Program-made: the position numbers and the translations under genes
Part shown: positions 5,611 to 12,667 of the stretch, in pieces
Layout: the number at the start of each line of letters is the position of its first letter
Numbering within the stretch: the first letter of the stretch is position 1
Assembly: GCF_024611995.1 (NCBI RefSeq)
Contig: NZ_CP102509.1
Span: 744,001 to 808,000, forward strand
Source of the DNA: Streptomyces sp. NBC_00162
GTDB lineage: Bacteria > Actinomycetota > Actinomycetes > Streptomycetales > Streptomycetaceae
Direction: 5' to 3'
DNA length: 64,000 bases
Notes under the pieces: model-generated
What the model was told of the DNA's origin: nothing
Database searches by the model: none
What the model saw: the letters and a program-made list of their open reading frames with translations, nothing else

Positions 5611-6255
5611 TCAGGCGACCAGCTCGTAGATGCCCCGCGCTGTCAGCCACAGGCCGACGACCAGGGAGAGCGTGACAATCAGCTGGTTCTGGTGCTGCTC
5701 GAGCCAGGTCCGCAGGGCGTTCAACCTCGCACCTGCGGCCGCCGGCGCCCAGACCGTGTACATCTCCATGACGATGAGGCCGAGCGTGGCCAGCAGGCAG
5801 TAGCCGGTCAGGGCGAGCCAGTCGGTGAGGGAGGAGAGGTCCGCGGCAACCACTGTCGCGGCGCCGGCACCGACCAGCGCCCAAGGCTGCAGCAGCCAGG
5901 CCAGCCCGGCGGCCGTGGCCAGTGAGGCGCCGTCCACCCGGGCCGTCCAGCGCGGCGGACCGTGCGGGCGGGGCGGCCGGCGGTGCCGGAGCAGGCCGTA
6001 CAGCACCAGCCCCAGGCCGATGGCGAGTTTCGCACACGCCGCGGCGGTCGACGGTGCGCTGTGGCGGGCCGGGGGCTCACCACCGGTCAGCAGCACCACA
6101 CACGCGATCACCACAACCAGGTTGGCGAGCCAGGACAACAGGAACGCCAGGGCCTTGCGGACGCCATGCCGCGAGGAAAGCAGCAGGATGAAGGCGCTGT
6201 TGTGCAGAGGCCCCAGGGTGATGGCCGTACCGATGACGACCAGGTCTAGGACCAT
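5611..6255 (-). CDS. GAP (Sap, sulfolipid-1-addressing-like) family membrane protein
   Basis: About 214 residues from ATG 6255; a longer in-frame reading to 6348 adds an uncharacteristic basic N-terminus. Roughly six hydrophobic segments are visible, starting MVLDLVVIGTAITLGPLHN and ending with a segment before TARGIYELVA. The pattern, with small loops after segment 3, fits the GAP/Sap family, best known from mycobacterial proteins needed to place lipids in the envelope. LysE-like transport folds are related. It converges on the hydrolase operon with 56 bp between stops and no strong terminator. Confidence 0.7.
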   Translation of the reverse strand: MVLDLVVIGTAITLGPLHNSAFILLLSSRHGVRKALAFLLSWLANLVVVIACVVLLTGGEPPARHSAPSTAAACAKLAIGLGLVLYGLLRHRRPPRPHGPPRWTARVDGASLATAAGLAWLLQPWALVGAGAATVVAADLSSLTDWLALTGYCLLATLGLIVMEMYTVWAPAAAGARLNALRTWLEQHQNQLIVTLSLVVGLWLTARGIYELVA

Positions 6256-6500
6256 CAGCGCAGTCACTCCCGGAGGCCAGGGTCGTCTGCCGCCTTCGGA
6301 CGGGCGAACCGGTGAACAGGGTCGGGCGGCGCTGTCACGGCGCCGCATCCCCGACTCTGCGGGCGGCTTCCCGACCGGTCAAGCACGCCACGCGCACGCC
6401 CCCGAACGCCGCACGCCGGGTGGCAGGAAGCTCACCGCCCGAGCGGCACCGCGCGCCCGCCGACGAGGGCCACCGCGATATCCGCCAGTGACTGATCTCG

Positions 6501-9335
6501 TCAGGTGAAGGAGACGACGAATGGGCACTCCGGCCCGTGTCGATCTCCCCGGGCCTCGTAGCCCGCGATGTAGGCACCCGCACGGCCGACGTGGATGATG
6601 TTGCCGTCGACGGTGCAGCGATCGCCCGAGCGGAGCAGGGCCCACAGCGGATCGGTGTCCTCGACCGGATAGAGGGACTTGGCACCGGAGTAGGTGATGG
6701 TGACCATGCCATCGTCGTGGTGGACGGCCTCCCCCTCGAACCCGTACATCCGAAGCTCGGAGACGCACAGCAGCGGCTTGGACATGGCCTCCTCGATCGC
6801 CGCAGCATAGAGCGGGAGTTCGGAGCGGATGACCTCGTGGAGGCGGCCGGCGAATTCGATGGTGGCGGGGCACGCATAGGAGCAGGGCATGTACGGGACC
6901 AGGCCGTACAGCGTGTGCCGGAGGTGGGGGTTGCACAGCGGGGACGGCCTGTCCCGGGTGTTGCGCAACGCCGCGTAGTAGGTGTTGTCGTCGTTCCAGT
7001 TGTTGCGCTTCCGGAAGAAGTCCTGGCAGCACGCGGGGTAGCCGAGGGCCTCCCCGAACGTGTCGTGGTCGGCCCGGTGTTTGTCGACGACCCTGCCGTT
7101 GACGATCAGCGGGTACCAGCCGGAGCCGACCACGTGGTCCAGAGCGGCCTGGTCACGGGCGAGGAAGACATGAGCCTCGGCGCCTTTGCGCAGGTCGGGC
7201 ACGAAGGCTGCCCGGGTGGTCGTAAGACGGCCTGGAGGCATCTGGGCAATCTGCGGCGAGAGCCTGTCGAAGCAGGCGTCCACGTGGTGGACGAGGCCGA
7301 GCGTCTCGGTGAGGCCGCGCAGGGCGGGCCAGCCGTCCCGCGGGACCCACAGGTCCATGGCCGGTTTCAGTCCGCTCGCCACGGCGATCAGCGTGGGGAG
7401 TTGGGCGCCACCGCGCGTGGCCTCGGCCAGATCCCAGTAACGGCCGGCCCGCAGCTCGCGTTCGACGGCCTCCGTCGCCGACAGGTTCACCGGTCGTACC
7501 GGGACAGGAGCCGGCTCCATTGCTTCCGGCAGGCGCAGGCCCCAGGCCAGGGCCTCCGGCGTCGTACGCACGTCCTGGTCTACGGAGAGCGGGGACCGCC
7601 GCGCCATGAGGGCTTCGGTGTGCGTGAGGATGTACAGCGCTTCATCACGGCGGCCCAGATGGCGAAGCGCGAAGGCGTAGCACTGCCAGAAGTACGGACT
7701 CCGCGGATCGTGGTTGACGCAGGCCGCGTAGCGCATGCCGGCGGTGCGGTAGTCCTCGGACACGTACGCGAGATGTGCCGCCGCGAGGTCCGGGATCAGG
7801 CCCTCGCCTGGGACGGTGTCCGGCAGCACGCCGGCGGATTCGCCTCCGTGTAGCTGATGCAGGTCGCGCACGGCCTCGAGCAGGGCGTCCGCCGGATACC
7901 AGCGGCGGGTGATCGCCCCCGGCGCCCAGTCCTCCGGGAGACCCAGGGCGCGCAGGGTGGCGTGAGTGAGGGCGTGAGTGAGGGCGTCGTTCCGAGCGGG
8001 CCGTGCCACGGGCGCCGTCGTGGGTGCCGTCGTCACGTCCGGAGCCTGATGCCGATCGTCCCAGCGGGTTCGGTGCACGGTGCGCTCGGCGTCGATGCGA
8101 CGGCGGTCCTCCAGCGGAGGTGGAGGCAGACTCCCGCCGCATGCCTCGATCCGGTCGGTGACCGCGTCGACGAACGCGGCACCCAGAGGCGTCAGTGAGG
8201 CCGCTGCCCGCAGTTCGCCCAGCCCGTCACGGACCTGGCGGACCACCCGGTAGGCCCGGTTCACGACGCTCCGCGGGTCCAGGCCCCCGGCGTCCGGGGT
8301 GTCAAGAACCGCCCGGTAGAAGTCGGCGACGCTCACGAAACTGTAGACGGCGTGCAGCAGTCCGCTCAGTGGCCTGGGGTCCTCTCGCCAAGGCGAGTAG
8401 TAGGCGGCCTCGCCGGTGTCGTCGACGATCAGCGGGTCGAGTGGCAGGACGGCGTTGAGCTTCTGGTGACCGTATTCGTGCACCAGGGCTTCCGCAGTCG
8501 CCATCGGCTCGCCCAGCGCCAGTGCGACCAGACCGGGCGCCTCATGGAAGCTTCCGCTCACGTGCACTCGCGAAGGGTCCGGGGACAGGACCGGGACGAT
8601 GACGCCCAGCCCGCCGGCAATCTCCTCGGCAAGGGGCGCGCATACCGCTCCGACGAGGTCGAGGTGGCTGTTCAGTTCGTGCTGCCAGCGCTGCGCCTGG
8701 CCGGGGTCCAGTTCCGCGTACGTGAATCGGGCCCGTCCGCCGAGCCTCAGGTCCCGGTCGAGCCAGTTGAGCTCCGTGCCGCCGACGAGCCGTGGTACCC
8801 GCAGTTGCCCTCCGCTCCAGGTCAGACGGCCGTCGTCTACGGTCAGGGAGGTACGGGCCCATGGCGCCGCACCCTCCAGGGCCAGGCCGGAGCCCGGCAG
8901 GCTGATCCGTCCTGCGGCGTCCGTACGGACTTCGGCTGTCAGCTGCCCCTTGCCCTGCAGGAGCAGCGCCGAGAGTGCGAAGCGTGCGAACTCCCGTAAA
9001 TGCGGGAGGAGATGCATCTCGGGAAAGCGCTCGGGGGCCCGCCGTCCCACCAGGTTCCAGGCCACGTCCACCCAGAACGCCGCGCTCGGATGGTTGAGCA
9101 CCCTCTTCTGCACGTCGGCCGGAGCGGCGCCGATCGCCTCCAGGCTCGCCGGAAAGCCCGACTCCGCCAGTGTGGCGGGGGTCCTCTCGGCGAGCAGCGC
9201 CGCGAGCCTGCGGATGCCCACCAGGGTGTGGAGGTACCGGGCCGCGAAGACGGCACGCGTGGTCCCCGTCCAGCCATGGGGGGCCGCCAGTGAGGTGATG
9301 GTGGTCCGGTCGAGCCGGGGGATGGTCGCGGTCAT
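6501..9335 (-). CDS. HExxH-type RiPP modification protein with TPR and Cys-rich C-terminal domain
   Basis: 944 residues from ATG 9335, which overlaps the radical SAM stop as ATGA. Residues 1 to about 420 match the HEXXH-motif domain found beside radical SAM peptide maturases: H286-E-Y-G-H290, then AAYYSPWREDPRPLSGLLHA. Recently studied members of this family act as 2-oxoglutarate-dependent peptide beta-hydroxylases rather than proteases. Residues about 500-600 contain TPR-like helices. The C-terminal part, after about residue 730, is a separate domain with GYPACCQDF and several more Cys (CNPHL, MPCSYAC, PECPF), possibly metal-binding. The length is about twice that of a minimal HExxH protein. 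Role (inference): hydroxylation or further tailoring of the peptide at 10512-10751. Confidence 0.8.
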   Translation of the reverse strand: MTATIPRLDRTTITSLAAPHGWTGTTRAVFAARYLHTLVGIRRLAALLAERTPATLAESGFPASLEAIGAAPADVQKRVLNHPSAAFWVDVAWNLVGRRAPERFPEMHLLPHLREFARFALSALLLQGKGQLTAEVRTDAAGRISLPGSGLALEGAAPWARTSLTVDDGRLTWSGGQLRVPRLVGGTELNWLDRDLRLGGRARFTYAELDPGQAQRWQHELNSHLDLVGAVCAPLAEEIAGGLGVIVPVLSPDPSRVHVSGSFHEAPGLVALALGEPMATAEALVHEYGHQKLNAVLPLDPLIVDDTGEAAYYSPWREDPRPLSGLLHAVYSFVSVADFYRAVLDTPDAGGLDPRSVVNRAYRVVRQVRDGLGELRAAASLTPLGAAFVDAVTDRIEACGGSLPPPPLEDRRRIDAERTVHRTRWDDRHQAPDVTTAPTTAPVARPARNDALTHALTHATLRALGLPEDWAPGAITRRWYPADALLEAVRDLHQLHGGESAGVLPDTVPGEGLIPDLAAAHLAYVSEDYRTAGMRYAACVNHDPRSPYFWQCYAFALRHLGRRDEALYILTHTEALMARRSPLSVDQDVRTTPEALAWGLRLPEAMEPAPVPVRPVNLSATEAVERELRAGRYWDLAEATRGGAQLPTLIAVASGLKPAMDLWVPRDGWPALRGLTETLGLVHHVDACFDRLSPQIAQMPPGRLTTTRAAFVPDLRKGAEAHVFLARDQAALDHVVGSGWYPLIVNGRVVDKHRADHDTFGEALGYPACCQDFFRKRNNWNDDNTYYAALRNTRDRPSPLCNPHLRHTLYGLVPYMPCSYACPATIEFAGRLHEVIRSELPLYAAAIEEAMSKPLLCVSELRMYGFEGEAVHHDDGMVTITYSGAKSLYPVEDTDPLWALLRSGDRCTVDGNIIHVGRAGAYIAGYEARGDRHGPECPFVVSFT

Positions 9336-10519
9336 CCTGCTTTCCCCTCTTCGCGTTCGACGCGTCTGGGCAGGCTTCGCAGGTCCCTTCGGGCCGTGTC
9401 TGTGATCACACGGATGAGTTTCTTCAGATCGGCACAGTAGACGGACTCGTTCCGGAATCCGTTCGCCCGGGAGTACCTGTGCGGGAAGTATCCACCCCCG
9501 CATATGCGGACCAGTTCACATTCCTGGCAGGTCGCCCCCAGGGTCCGCCACTTGTCCTGACGCGCGTGCACCAACGGCGACTTCAGCGCGGCGTCGAAAC
9601 TGTCGTCGAAGATGTTCAGACCCAGCTCACAGGCCCCCGGGTAGGTGACCTTCAGGGTGTCCACCGCCTGTATCTCCCCGTTGGTCTCGACCACGGTGAA
9701 GTCGACGGGCTGCAGCCCCCACTCCTCGGAACTGTTCGCGGCCCCCAGGTAGAGGGCGATGACGTCACGGAACCGCCTGATCCTGACGGGCTGAGGGCGT
9801 TCCCGGTACCACATGTCGAAAATGCCGAGCAGCCAGTCCGCGTACGGGGTGGTGTCGAGCCGCTCCTTTCCCGGAGGGCGCAGGTCGTGATGGCCCAGCG
9901 GCAGGAGGAAATCGATGGACGGCGGATCGAAGGAGCGGAAATAGGAGTACGTCTCGACCGGGTCCGACTCGAGGTCGATCACGGCGAGAATCCCACCCCA
10001 CAGCCCGCGGGCCCGAGGACTGCTCAGCAGCTCGATCGAACGCTCCACCTGCGCGAAGGACGACCTGCCCGCGTGGTCCAGACGGTGGCGGTCGTTGACC
10101 CCGCGCGGCCCGTCCATGCTCAGTCCGAAGGAGACGTCCCACTCCCGGCAGAAGTCCAGGACCTCCTCGGTGTAGGCGGTGCCGTTGGTCTGTCCGTTCC
10201 AGCGGATCCTGACGTCCGGTGCCGCATGCGTCACCGCTTCGCAGAGCGCACGCAGGTAGTCCACCCCGAGCAGCAACGGCTCACCCCCGTGGAGGGTCAG
10301 CTCCACCTCATGCAGGCCGTGTTCACACGCGTGCTCGTTGATCCGGCGACCGAGCTGGGCTGCGGTATCCATCGACATTCGCGTCGGCTGCGACCGCCAC
10401 GACTGATCGGCGTGCCGATAGACGTAGCAGTAGTCGCAGTCGAGGTTGCAGCGGGAAGCGACCTTGCAGATAAAGGATCTGAACGGCTTGGTCCCGGATT
10501 CCAGGACCGCGTCAGACAC
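9332..10519 (-). CDS. Radical SAM/SPASM peptide maturase (FxsB-like cyclophane synthase candidate)
   Basis: 395 residues. The GTG start at 10519 overlaps the end of the precursor gene by 8 bp, giving tight translational coupling. Residues C24-x3-C28-x2-C31 (CNLDCDYC) bind the radical SAM cluster. HGGEPLL is the usual SAM-binding loop. The C-terminal SPASM segment has CQECELVRICGGGYF and a later VYCADLK for auxiliary iron-sulfur clusters. The overall pattern fits the family of actinobacterial maturases that crosslink an aromatic residue to the residue two positions on, as FxsB does for Phe-x-Ser. The precursor's triplets suit this exactly. I do not see a second radical SAM gene as in the His-Xaa-Ser systems. 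Confidence 0.85.
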   Translation of the reverse strand: MSDAVLESGTKPFRSFICKVASRCNLDCDYCYVYRHADQSWRSQPTRMSMDTAAQLGRRINEHACEHGLHEVELTLHGGEPLLLGVDYLRALCEAVTHAAPDVRIRWNGQTNGTAYTEEVLDFCREWDVSFGLSMDGPRGVNDRHRLDHAGRSSFAQVERSIELLSSPRARGLWGGILAVIDLESDPVETYSYFRSFDPPSIDFLLPLGHHDLRPPGKERLDTTPYADWLLGIFDMWYRERPQPVRIRRFRDVIALYLGAANSSEEWGLQPVDFTVVETNGEIQAVDTLKVTYPGACELGLNIFDDSFDAALKSPLVHARQDKWRTLGATCQECELVRICGGGYFPHRYSRANGFRNESVYCADLKKLIRVITDTARRDLRSLPRRVEREEGKAG

Positions 10520-10751
10520 GACCGGACCACGTGCTGGAACTGTGTGAGCTGAAGGAACTGAAGGAGCTGTGACTGCTGTGGTGGCTGTACTCCGGCCCTA
10601 ACTCGGGGTCGCGGGTGCCACTGAACATCTCGTCCAGGATCTGGCCGAGTACCGTGCCGTCGAGCGCATCGATCGACATGAGATCGAGGTCCGGCAGTTC
10701 GAGTTCGATGCCGTCCCTTTCCGCATCTGCAAGATCGGACTTTTTGAGCAT
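10512..10751 (-). CDS. RiPP precursor with repeated (His/Phe)-Ser-Ser core
   Basis: 79 residues from ATG 10751, which has GGAGG with a 6-nt spacer. An upstream in-frame GTG at 10817 with AAGGAG could add 22 residues. Residues 1-50 form an acidic leader (ELELPDLDLMSIDALDG). The core has Y55-S-H57, then five triplets at 58-72 (HSS, HSS, FSS, FSS, HSS), then S-T-W75-S-G-R-V79. Each triplet offers an aromatic residue with Ser two positions later, the target geometry of three-residue cyclophane enzymes. It is missed by size-limited gene callers. The maturase starts inside its last codons. Confidence 0.8.
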   Translation of the reverse strand: MLKKSDLADAERDGIELELPDLDLMSIDALDGTVLGQILDEMFSGTRDPELGPEYSHHSSHSSFSSFSSHSSSTWSGRV

Positions 10752-10769
10752 CAATGGCCTCCAGCCGCT

Positions 10770-10893
10770 CATTCCGGTACTTGCCGCCTCGACCACGATC
10801 CCCTTCCGCCCATACACCGTCAACTCCTTCTAGAAAAAATCCAGAACCGATGTTCTACGCTGTCCGTGACGAGGAGTGAGCGGACCAGCCGCC
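10770..10893. promoter_or_regulatory. Shared divergent promoter region of the RiPP operon and TetR (copy 1 of a duplicated segment)
   Basis: The gap contains the near-dyad TTCTAGA-N5-TCCAGAA at about 10828-10846, a plausible TetR operator. The segment from about 10770 to 10893 is repeated, clearly related though diverged, at 27490-27606. The copies share CCGTCAACTC(C/T)TTCTAGAAAA, GCTGTCCG(T/C)GACG and, on the minus strand, GGATCGTGGT(C/T)GAGGCGG, which encodes IVVEA in an upstream reading frame in both. Confidence 0.65.
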
Positions 10894-10916
10894 ATGAGAC
10901 CGAGGACCCCTGCACG

Positions 10917-11510
10917 ATGAGCCCAAAACAACAACGCGGCGAAGCCACGGTCGAACAAGTGATGGATGCAGCGCTCAGCATCTACGCCTCGTCGGGCGAA
11001 GCCGGCCTCACCCTCGGCGCCATCACCAAGGCCAGCGGGGTCAGCTCCGGAAGCATCTACCACCACTTCGGCAGTCTCGACGGGGTGCTCTCCGCGCTCG
11101 CACTTCGCGCGCTGGGTCAGCTCCTGAGCGCGCTGGGAACGGCACTGACCCAGGCGACCCACGCCCGCTCCGGCATCCAGGCCGTTGTCCTGGCGTACCT
11201 GGATTTCGTGCAGACCCATCCGGAAGAGGCCAGCCTCTTGCACTCCGTCGCCGCAGATCGCGAAGGCATGGCGCGCGCCGGACAGATCCGTGACTCCCAG
11301 GAGGCCCGGCTGGCACCGATCGCCCTCTGGATCCACGCGCACCAGGAATCCGGCGAACTCGTGAAGCTCTCCGCCCCCATGATCGAGTCCCTTGTCCTGG
11401 GCCCGGTCGTCGCCGTCGTCCGCCGCTGGCTCACCGTAGGCGACATCGATATGGAGGAAGCCGCCCGCGCACTGCCTGACCACATCTGGCGCTCAGTCAG
11501 TCACACCTAG
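10917..11510 (+). CDS. TetR/AcrR-family regulator of the RiPP locus
   Basis: About 197 residues from ATG 10917 (MSPKQQRGEATVEQV). The N-terminal helix-turn-helix is standard: ITKASGVSSGSIYHHFGSLDGVL. The C-terminal helical ligand domain follows without motifs that identify a ligand. It is divergent from the precursor-maturase-HExxH operon, with the start regions sharing a dyad at about 10828-10846, so it probably controls both itself and the peptide operon. The stop is followed by about 310 bp without a convincing gene before the insertion element. Confidence 0.85.
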   Translation: MSPKQQRGEATVEQVMDAALSIYASSGEAGLTLGAITKASGVSSGSIYHHFGSLDGVLSALALRALGQLLSALGTALTQATHARSGIQAVVLAYLDFVQTHPEEASLLHSVAADREGMARAGQIRDSQEARLAPIALWIHAHQESGELVKLSAPMIESLVLGPVVAVVRRWLTVGDIDMEEAARALPDHIWRSVSHT

Positions 11511-11818: not shown

Positions 11819-12667
11819 TCATCTCATTTGGTGGATTGGGTAGGCTGTCGGTCGTGGCGGGGATTGTTGAGCGGCTGGTGCCGGATGAGTTGTGGGTGTT
11901 GTTCCAGCGGGTGGTTCCGGAAGCGCCGTCGCGGCCGCAGGGCGGTGGTCGGCGGCGGCATGGTGACCGCGAAGTGCTCGCCGCGATCGTGTTCGTGGCC
12001 ACGTCGGGCTGCACGTGGCAGCAGTTGCCGACCGCGTCATTCGGGCCGTCCGGGGCGACAGCCCACCGGCGCTTCTCCGAGTGGAGCAAGGCCCGTGTGT
12101 GGGCCAAGCTTCACCGTCTGGTCCTCGATGAACTCGGCGCTCGCGGCGAGCTGGACTGGTCGCGCTGTGCGATCGACTCGGTGAACATGCGGGCCTTGAA
12201 AAGGGGGACCTGACGGGTCCGAATCCTGTCGACAGGGGCAAGTTCGGGTCGAAGATCCACTTGATCACCGAGCGGACCGGTCTGCCCCTGTCCGTCGGAA
12301 TCTCGGGAGCGAACCTGCATGACAGCCAGGCCCTCGAGCCCCTCGTCCGCGGCATACCGCCCATCCGCTCACGCCGCGGACGCCGACGGCGCAAGCCCGG
12401 AAAGCTCCACGCCGACAAAGGCTACGACTACGCCCACTTGCGGAAATGGTTACGCCAGCGAGGCATCAAGCACCGCATAGCCCGCCGTGGCATCGAGTCC
12501 TCGCAGCGCCTGGGCCGCCACCGCTGGACCATCGAACGCACCATGGCCTGGCTCGCCGGCTGCCGCCGCCTCCACCGCCGCTACGAACGCAAAGCCGAAC
12601 ACTTCCTCGCGTTCACCAGCATCGCCTGCACCCTCATCTGCTACCGCAGACTCTCCAAATGAGATGA
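11819..12667 (+). mobile_element. IS5-family (IS427-group-like) insertion sequence
   Basis: Bounded by 13-bp perfect inverted repeats: TCATCTCATTTGG at 11819-11831 and its complement at 12655-12667. CTAA occurs just outside both ends, at about 11811 and 12672, compatible with the short target duplications of this group. The body encodes one DDE transposase spread over two frames. The right end lies against the 5' end of a SUKH gene and supplies an extra in-frame ATG (12664), so the insertion may have replaced that gene's promoter or first codons. Confidence 0.85.
11836..12662 (+). CDS. IS5-family transposase in two overlapping frames
   Basis: Frame one runs to the stop at 12211-12213 and covers the N-terminal part (SGCTWQQLP, then DWSRCAIDSVNMRA with the first catalytic Asp). 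Frame two continues with DLTGPNPVDRGKFGSKIH and carries ADKGYD with the second Asp and RWTIERTMAW with the catalytic Glu. The two join by a -1 shift at the GGGGG run 12203-12207. Such shifts are programmed in many IS427-group elements, but one missing G would give the same appearance. The joined protein is about 275 residues, normal for the group, so the element may be active. Confidence 0.8.

Follow-up and report, generated by a model that had tools for sequence, protein, structure and literature searches.

The described RiPP systems that come closest to the locus analysed here are the FxsA/FxsB (FxSxx-COOH) triceptides, of which MscB is an example (its InterPro family we take to be the FxsB family), the YhhB triceptides, the Chl and Sji systems, represented by ChlB, ChlH and SjiH, and the His-Xaa-Ser sets (HxsA/HxsB/HxsC). 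The crosslinks reported for such enzymes, according to the accessible part of the source, run from Phe to Ser for MscB, from Tyr to Arg and from His to Arg for YhhB, and from His to Ala for HaaB (PMC11002830). Here we compare these systems with a minus-strand locus in a stretch of 64,000 nucleotides from Streptomyces sp. NBC_00162 (the window; bases 744001-808000 of contig 1 in a genome of 9.02 Mb in two contigs). We read this locus, with a probability of roughly 0.6, as a self-contained three-gene cassette of triceptide type that would give rise to a poly-cyclophane, beta-hydroxylated peptide and that contains an unrecognised third module.

The trio consists of a small Ser/His/Phe gene, the gene of an FxsB-type radical SAM/SPASM maturase and the gene of a 944-residue HExxH protein. 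The first two genes overlap by 8 bp (10512-10519) and the last two by the 4 bp ATGA (9332-9335), the open reading frames lying exactly where a preliminary description of this DNA had placed three coupled leftward genes. On the other side of the precursor a TetR_N protein is encoded divergently (10866-11510), and about 1 kb past the precursor the ORFs at 11836-12662 resemble, by eye, a split transposase. At the opposite end, 152 bp downstream of the third gene and on the cassette strand, lies the gene of an SfLAP (PF11139) membrane protein (window 5611-6348).

The 944-residue protein (6501..9335, minus strand) is a fusion of an N-terminal aKG-HExxH domain, a TPR-like linker and a C-terminal DUF483-like domain; the preliminary description had recognised the first of these but had missed the C-terminal third. 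This third (residues 640-944, the start being approximate; 6504..7418, minus strand), which is backed by the alignment and by a predicted model with a pLDDT of 89.3, shows the highest conservation within the protein (66.8% versus 58.9% for residues 1-420). The cysteines of its CC...CxxxC pattern (C769, C770, C818 and C822) are invariant in 26 of 26 aligned proteins, and the same holds for His, Lys, Asp, Arg and Glu positions. The domain matches DUF483 (PF04467) weakly over the GYPxCC region but is much longer than the 122-position model, and its score of 15.4 bits (19.5 in a genome-wide search) stays below the cut-off of 25. For three proteins (P0025, P0026 and P0089) a PF04467 assignment is precomputed, and the model finds matches in M. 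jannaschii and S. acidocaldarius, above the cut-off in one of the two. A PG1857-like fold (2guk) is a tentative candidate for the opening 140 residues of the domain.

In two clusters with FxsB and HExxH genes, G495 and G841, the DUF483-like domain is encoded by a gene of its own. The G495 row is made up of a precursor that matches the FxSxx-COOH model TIGR04268 (43.1 bits, cut-off 28), an FxsB protein (429 bits), an aKG-HExxH protein of 676 aa and a DUF483-like protein of 335 aa. Behind the last of these (L042 5762-9636) follow genes for a B12-type-methyltransferase-like radical SAM protein and a carbamoyltransferase, hinting at a product that may be methylated and carbamoylated; the carbamoyltransferase would make sense if a newly made hydroxyl group were decorated. 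The G841 cluster is longer, with an FxsB protein (506 bits), an aKG-HExxH protein (181 bits), more radical SAM proteins and a 2OG-Fe(II) oxygenase; here the DUF483-like gene is overlapped by that of a motif-less HExxH-like TPR protein (L043 8698-10332), while an intact HExxH gene lies elsewhere in the cluster. Among the best 7988 candidates scored, 5 of 25 separate DUF483-like proteins come from metagenome contigs equal in size to contigs with HExxH proteins of 571-646 aa, which suggests that these five share contigs with HExxH proteins. In the neighbourhoods seen, the domain accompanies FxsB and HExxH, fused or not.

That the DUF483-like domain is an enzyme has, in our estimate, about even odds. 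The alternative, in which it acts non-enzymatically, as a partner or scaffold offering the peptide to hydroxylase or maturase, falls a little short of that: it agrees with the fusion to the hydroxylase and with G841, where the neighbouring HExxH-like TPR protein lacks its motif, as if the pair worked without that catalysis, but residues invariant in all 26 proteins and a conservation above that of the hydroxylase domain resemble an active or metal site.

The N-terminal domain (about residues 1-420; 8076..9335, minus strand) scores 130.2 bits with the aKG-HExxH model TIGR04267 (cut-off 40), carries HEYGH at residues 286-290 and has the fold of SjiH and ChlH, its nearest solved structures. Match and fold together support the earlier placement of the protein in the family of 2-oxoglutarate peptide hydroxylases and lead us to reject a plain zinc-protease reading of the HExxH motif. 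The closest named relative of the full 944-residue protein, among the best 7988 candidates scored, belongs to Streptomyces sp. ISL-44 and is 97% identical. The domain might instead mainly cleave, removing the conserved tail behind the triplet array by 2-oxoglutarate-driven backbone oxidation or by hydrolysis, as PflC/PosC do at the ARMD motif. PflC and PosC belong to the same enzyme family and cleave the backbone oxidatively, and PflC can also hydrolyse without a leader (accessible part of PMC12636437); moreover, the C-terminus of many precursors is a short tail with a W, and the compared loci have no separate protease gene in common. Against this, PflC and PosC also hydroxylate and other members of the family only hydroxylate, as far as the accessible accounts go, and the window tail is without the ARMD motif, and we consider a mainly cleaving domain unlikely.

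The maturase (9332..10519, minus strand; 395 aa from a GTG start, CxxxCxxC at residues 24-31) reaches 427 bits with the FxsB model TIGR04269 (cut-off 370), a profile check that upholds its earlier description as FxsB-type, and the solved structure closest to it is that of the ChlB radical SAM domain (9gm3, E 1.4e-79). YhhB (NF041707) is the second-best family, and assignment to it is rejected at 382.8 bits versus a cut-off of 445. The His-Xaa-Ser assignment is rejected as well, with scores far below the cut-offs both for the maturase (HxsB, 61 bits, cut-off 370) and for the precursor (HxsA2, 19.7 of 48 bits; HxsA, 15.9 of 121.65 bits). As expected of a triceptide locus, a precursor with aromatic-x-x motifs adjoins a cyclophane-type radical SAM enzyme. 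The preliminary description had also seen novelty in a single radical SAM enzyme that works on both His and Phe sites, which was an overstatement, as YhhB is reported to act on Tyr and His (accessible part of PMC11002830). With that novelty weakened, the stronger news is the invariant four-Cys domain fused to the hydroxylase together with long, variable arrays, a combination not found in the literature searched, which takes in a minority of subscription papers. Two further FxsB genes above the cut-off are present in the same genome, at C1:6548540-6549619 (590.7 bits) and C1:3313947-3315032 (426.6 bits).

The small gene and its stop at 10512 had been called correctly; its start is ambiguous, a GTG at 10817 (preceded by AAGGAG, giving 101 residues) and an ATG at 10751 (preceded by GGAGG, giving 79 residues) each having a ribosome-binding site. 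GTxLG, a motif of the leader, is placed at residue 26-36 in 19 of the 23 homologues from the database and at residue 32 in the ATG form; we therefore favour ATG 10751 and hence a predicted precursor of 79 residues (10512..10751, minus strand), with the leader and array of its homologues. The core (10533..10592, minus strand, bounds approximate) reads YSH HSS HSS FSS FSS HSS in phase and is followed by the tail STWSGRV. These six in-phase aromatic or His triplets exceed chance: when the final 32 residues were shuffled 20,000 times, 7 of the shuffles reached six. Arrays of differing length recur in the homologues.

A precursor profile search found 23 proteins among the best 7985 candidates scored, which with the window and four loci make a set of 28, or 27 without P0099, a duplicate of the window's own precursor. 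All 28 carry at the C-terminus an uninterrupted in-phase series of triplets that each begin with Phe, His, Tyr or Trp; it is 4 to 20 units long when length is taken as the longest run, so that end units may be over-counted and YSH or WTW may be unmodified. P0110, P0111 and P0113 appear truncated or shifted, and the L009 and L044 precursors were taken one residue late in these analyses, which leaves their arrays unaffected. The genes with 19 (Streptomyces ipomoeae) and 20 units (G888) both use mixed Ser codons, so the array seems to be maintained at the protein level; cores longer than that of the window also occur in precursors of Sphaerisporangium rufum and Nonomuraea typhae. In the 27 sequences, position 3 is Ser in 113 of 122 Phe units versus 63 of 89 His units (Fisher p 5e-5, not corrected for ancestry), a looser third position from which it follows that His sites may be handled differently; no such difference is seen at position 2 (Ser in 103/122 versus 75/89, p = 1). 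Among His units the most frequent are HSS (51), HSR (11), HHS (8), HSQ (6) and HSA (4). FSS, HSR and HSA units agree with the sites at which MscB, YhhB and HaaB are reported to form crosslinks, and HSQ and HHS have no counterpart among the crosslinks reported in the accessible part of PMC11002830.

Established precursor models capture little of this family: none of nine array-type precursors scanned against NCBIfam reaches any cut-off, the window precursor gives no match to the FxSxx-COOH model TIGR04268 up to E 0.1, and the array precursor P0107 has a weak leader match to it (E 0.045, 14 of 28 bits). Metagenome precursors P0117-P0119, with a similar leader, triplets of both Tyr and His, and the ending SMGPI(G/R), form a possible sister branch. 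His opens 89 of 236 triplets (27 sequences), as it might in a His/Ser-rich metal binder whose histidines are the main feature and which carries few or no crosslinks; since Phe predominates in the long arrays and a cyclophane-type maturase is encoded by the overlapping gene, we hold this to be very improbable. That the small, repetitive ORF with its ambiguous start is not a translated precursor at all is hardly credible, given that homologues keep the leader and the in-phase array, with mixed synonymous codons, and that the ORF takes the same place in 5/5 complete loci.

Related loci retain the trio. A single scan of genome contigs yielded four loci, L011 lying at a contig end, and the same three genes are found in all four related loci with complete flanks (L009, L010, L012 and L044). 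The preliminary description had named homologues without the small gene, or without a conserved core, as evidence against its reading; with the small gene and the logic of its core present in 4/4 loci, this objection does not apply. The divergent TetR gene is indeed encoded where expected but is not conserved: tblastn (E 1e-4) gave no match for TetR or SfLAP in L009-L012 or L042-L045, the four complete loci included, and we reject the former as a cassette member and the latter as a conserved exporter. As none of four window neighbours (these two and two more) has a tblastn match in the other loci, the conserved unit is the three genes; together with a scan of ten flanking proteins, the same searches revealed no protease, exporter, transporter or immunity gene common to the compared loci.

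The fusion protein is sparsely distributed. At E 1e-20, 18 of 297 genomes of the family match, 17 of them partially, leaving the window's own protein as the sole full-length match. At E 1e-40 it is the sole match among 150 relatives, and hits occur in 2 of 394 genomes of the class, namely the window's and that of the split G495. Among 298 genomes from the Nonomuraea family 4 have hits, three with fused genes and one, G841, with split genes. A profile of the domain picks out one genome among 396 of the phylum, again the window's, and one among 35 from G495's own family, namely G495. This patchy occurrence, along with the changing neighbours, suggests that the cassette has spread by horizontal transfer. 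In Streptomyces ipomoeae (L010 4000-12173) it stands between an HTH_22 regulator and a row of OHCU decarboxylase, uricase and amidohydrolase genes, as if inserted into a urate-degradation region. A plasmid of Streptomyces sp. NBC_01431 (L045 7767-8207) carries, next to an ISAs1 transposase gene, a remnant of fusion residues 562-708 (80% identity) that is apparently a decayed copy of the fusion gene.

We propose the following pathway for the three-gene cassette. The FxsB-family enzyme would read the conserved leader of the precursor and join the Phe or His side chain that opens each triplet to the beta-carbon two residues on (mostly Ser), so that three-residue cyclophanes would follow one another along the core; next, with Fe(II), 2-oxoglutarate and O2, the N-terminal part of the fusion would introduce beta-hydroxyl groups into the crosslinked core. 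Both steps draw on families with tested members, and by analogy with these relatives the precursor is very probably crosslinked and the peptide probably hydroxylated. The fused four-Cys domain may perform or enable a further step on the same peptide, as its conservation and the company it keeps lead us to infer. Bolder is the idea that the DUF483-like proteins are a new class of peptide-modifying metalloenzyme with a CC...CxxxC site, a recurrent fused or separate partner of FxsB and aKG-HExxH that adds an undescribed third modification, and that arrays of up to 20 triplets become contiguous cyclophane rods of gene-set length; we advance it tentatively, as possible though on balance doubtful. 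If the proposed pathway is true, a single short cassette specifies a crosslinked repeat peptide that differs in length from species to species, and brings to light a conserved family of proteins travelling with two well-studied classes of RiPP enzyme. Since the domain is fused to a hydroxylase of a known assay kind, its chemistry is directly testable with one precursor and two proteins.

Placed beside the known systems, the locus shares features with each and coincides with none. With the FxsA/FxsB triceptides it has in common a maturase of the FxsB model, but its precursor is a triplet array, whereas the FxSxx-COOH type has one C-terminal FxS site. The Arg partner of the Tyr and His sites of YhhB (accessible part of PMC11002830) recalls the HSR units seen here; however, the window maturase is below the YhhB cut-off and the core consists of Phe/His-Ser repeats. 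The His-Xaa-Ser sets are evoked by the His-Ser triplets of the core and the weak HxsA2 match, yet the window has a single radical SAM gene and Phe units. Finally, the maturase is related to ChlB and the hydroxylase domain has the ChlH/SjiH fold, but in Chl, as far as it is described in the accessible account, radical SAM and HExxH domains form one protein, whereas in the window the HExxH domain is separate from the radical SAM enzyme and fused to the DUF483-like domain.
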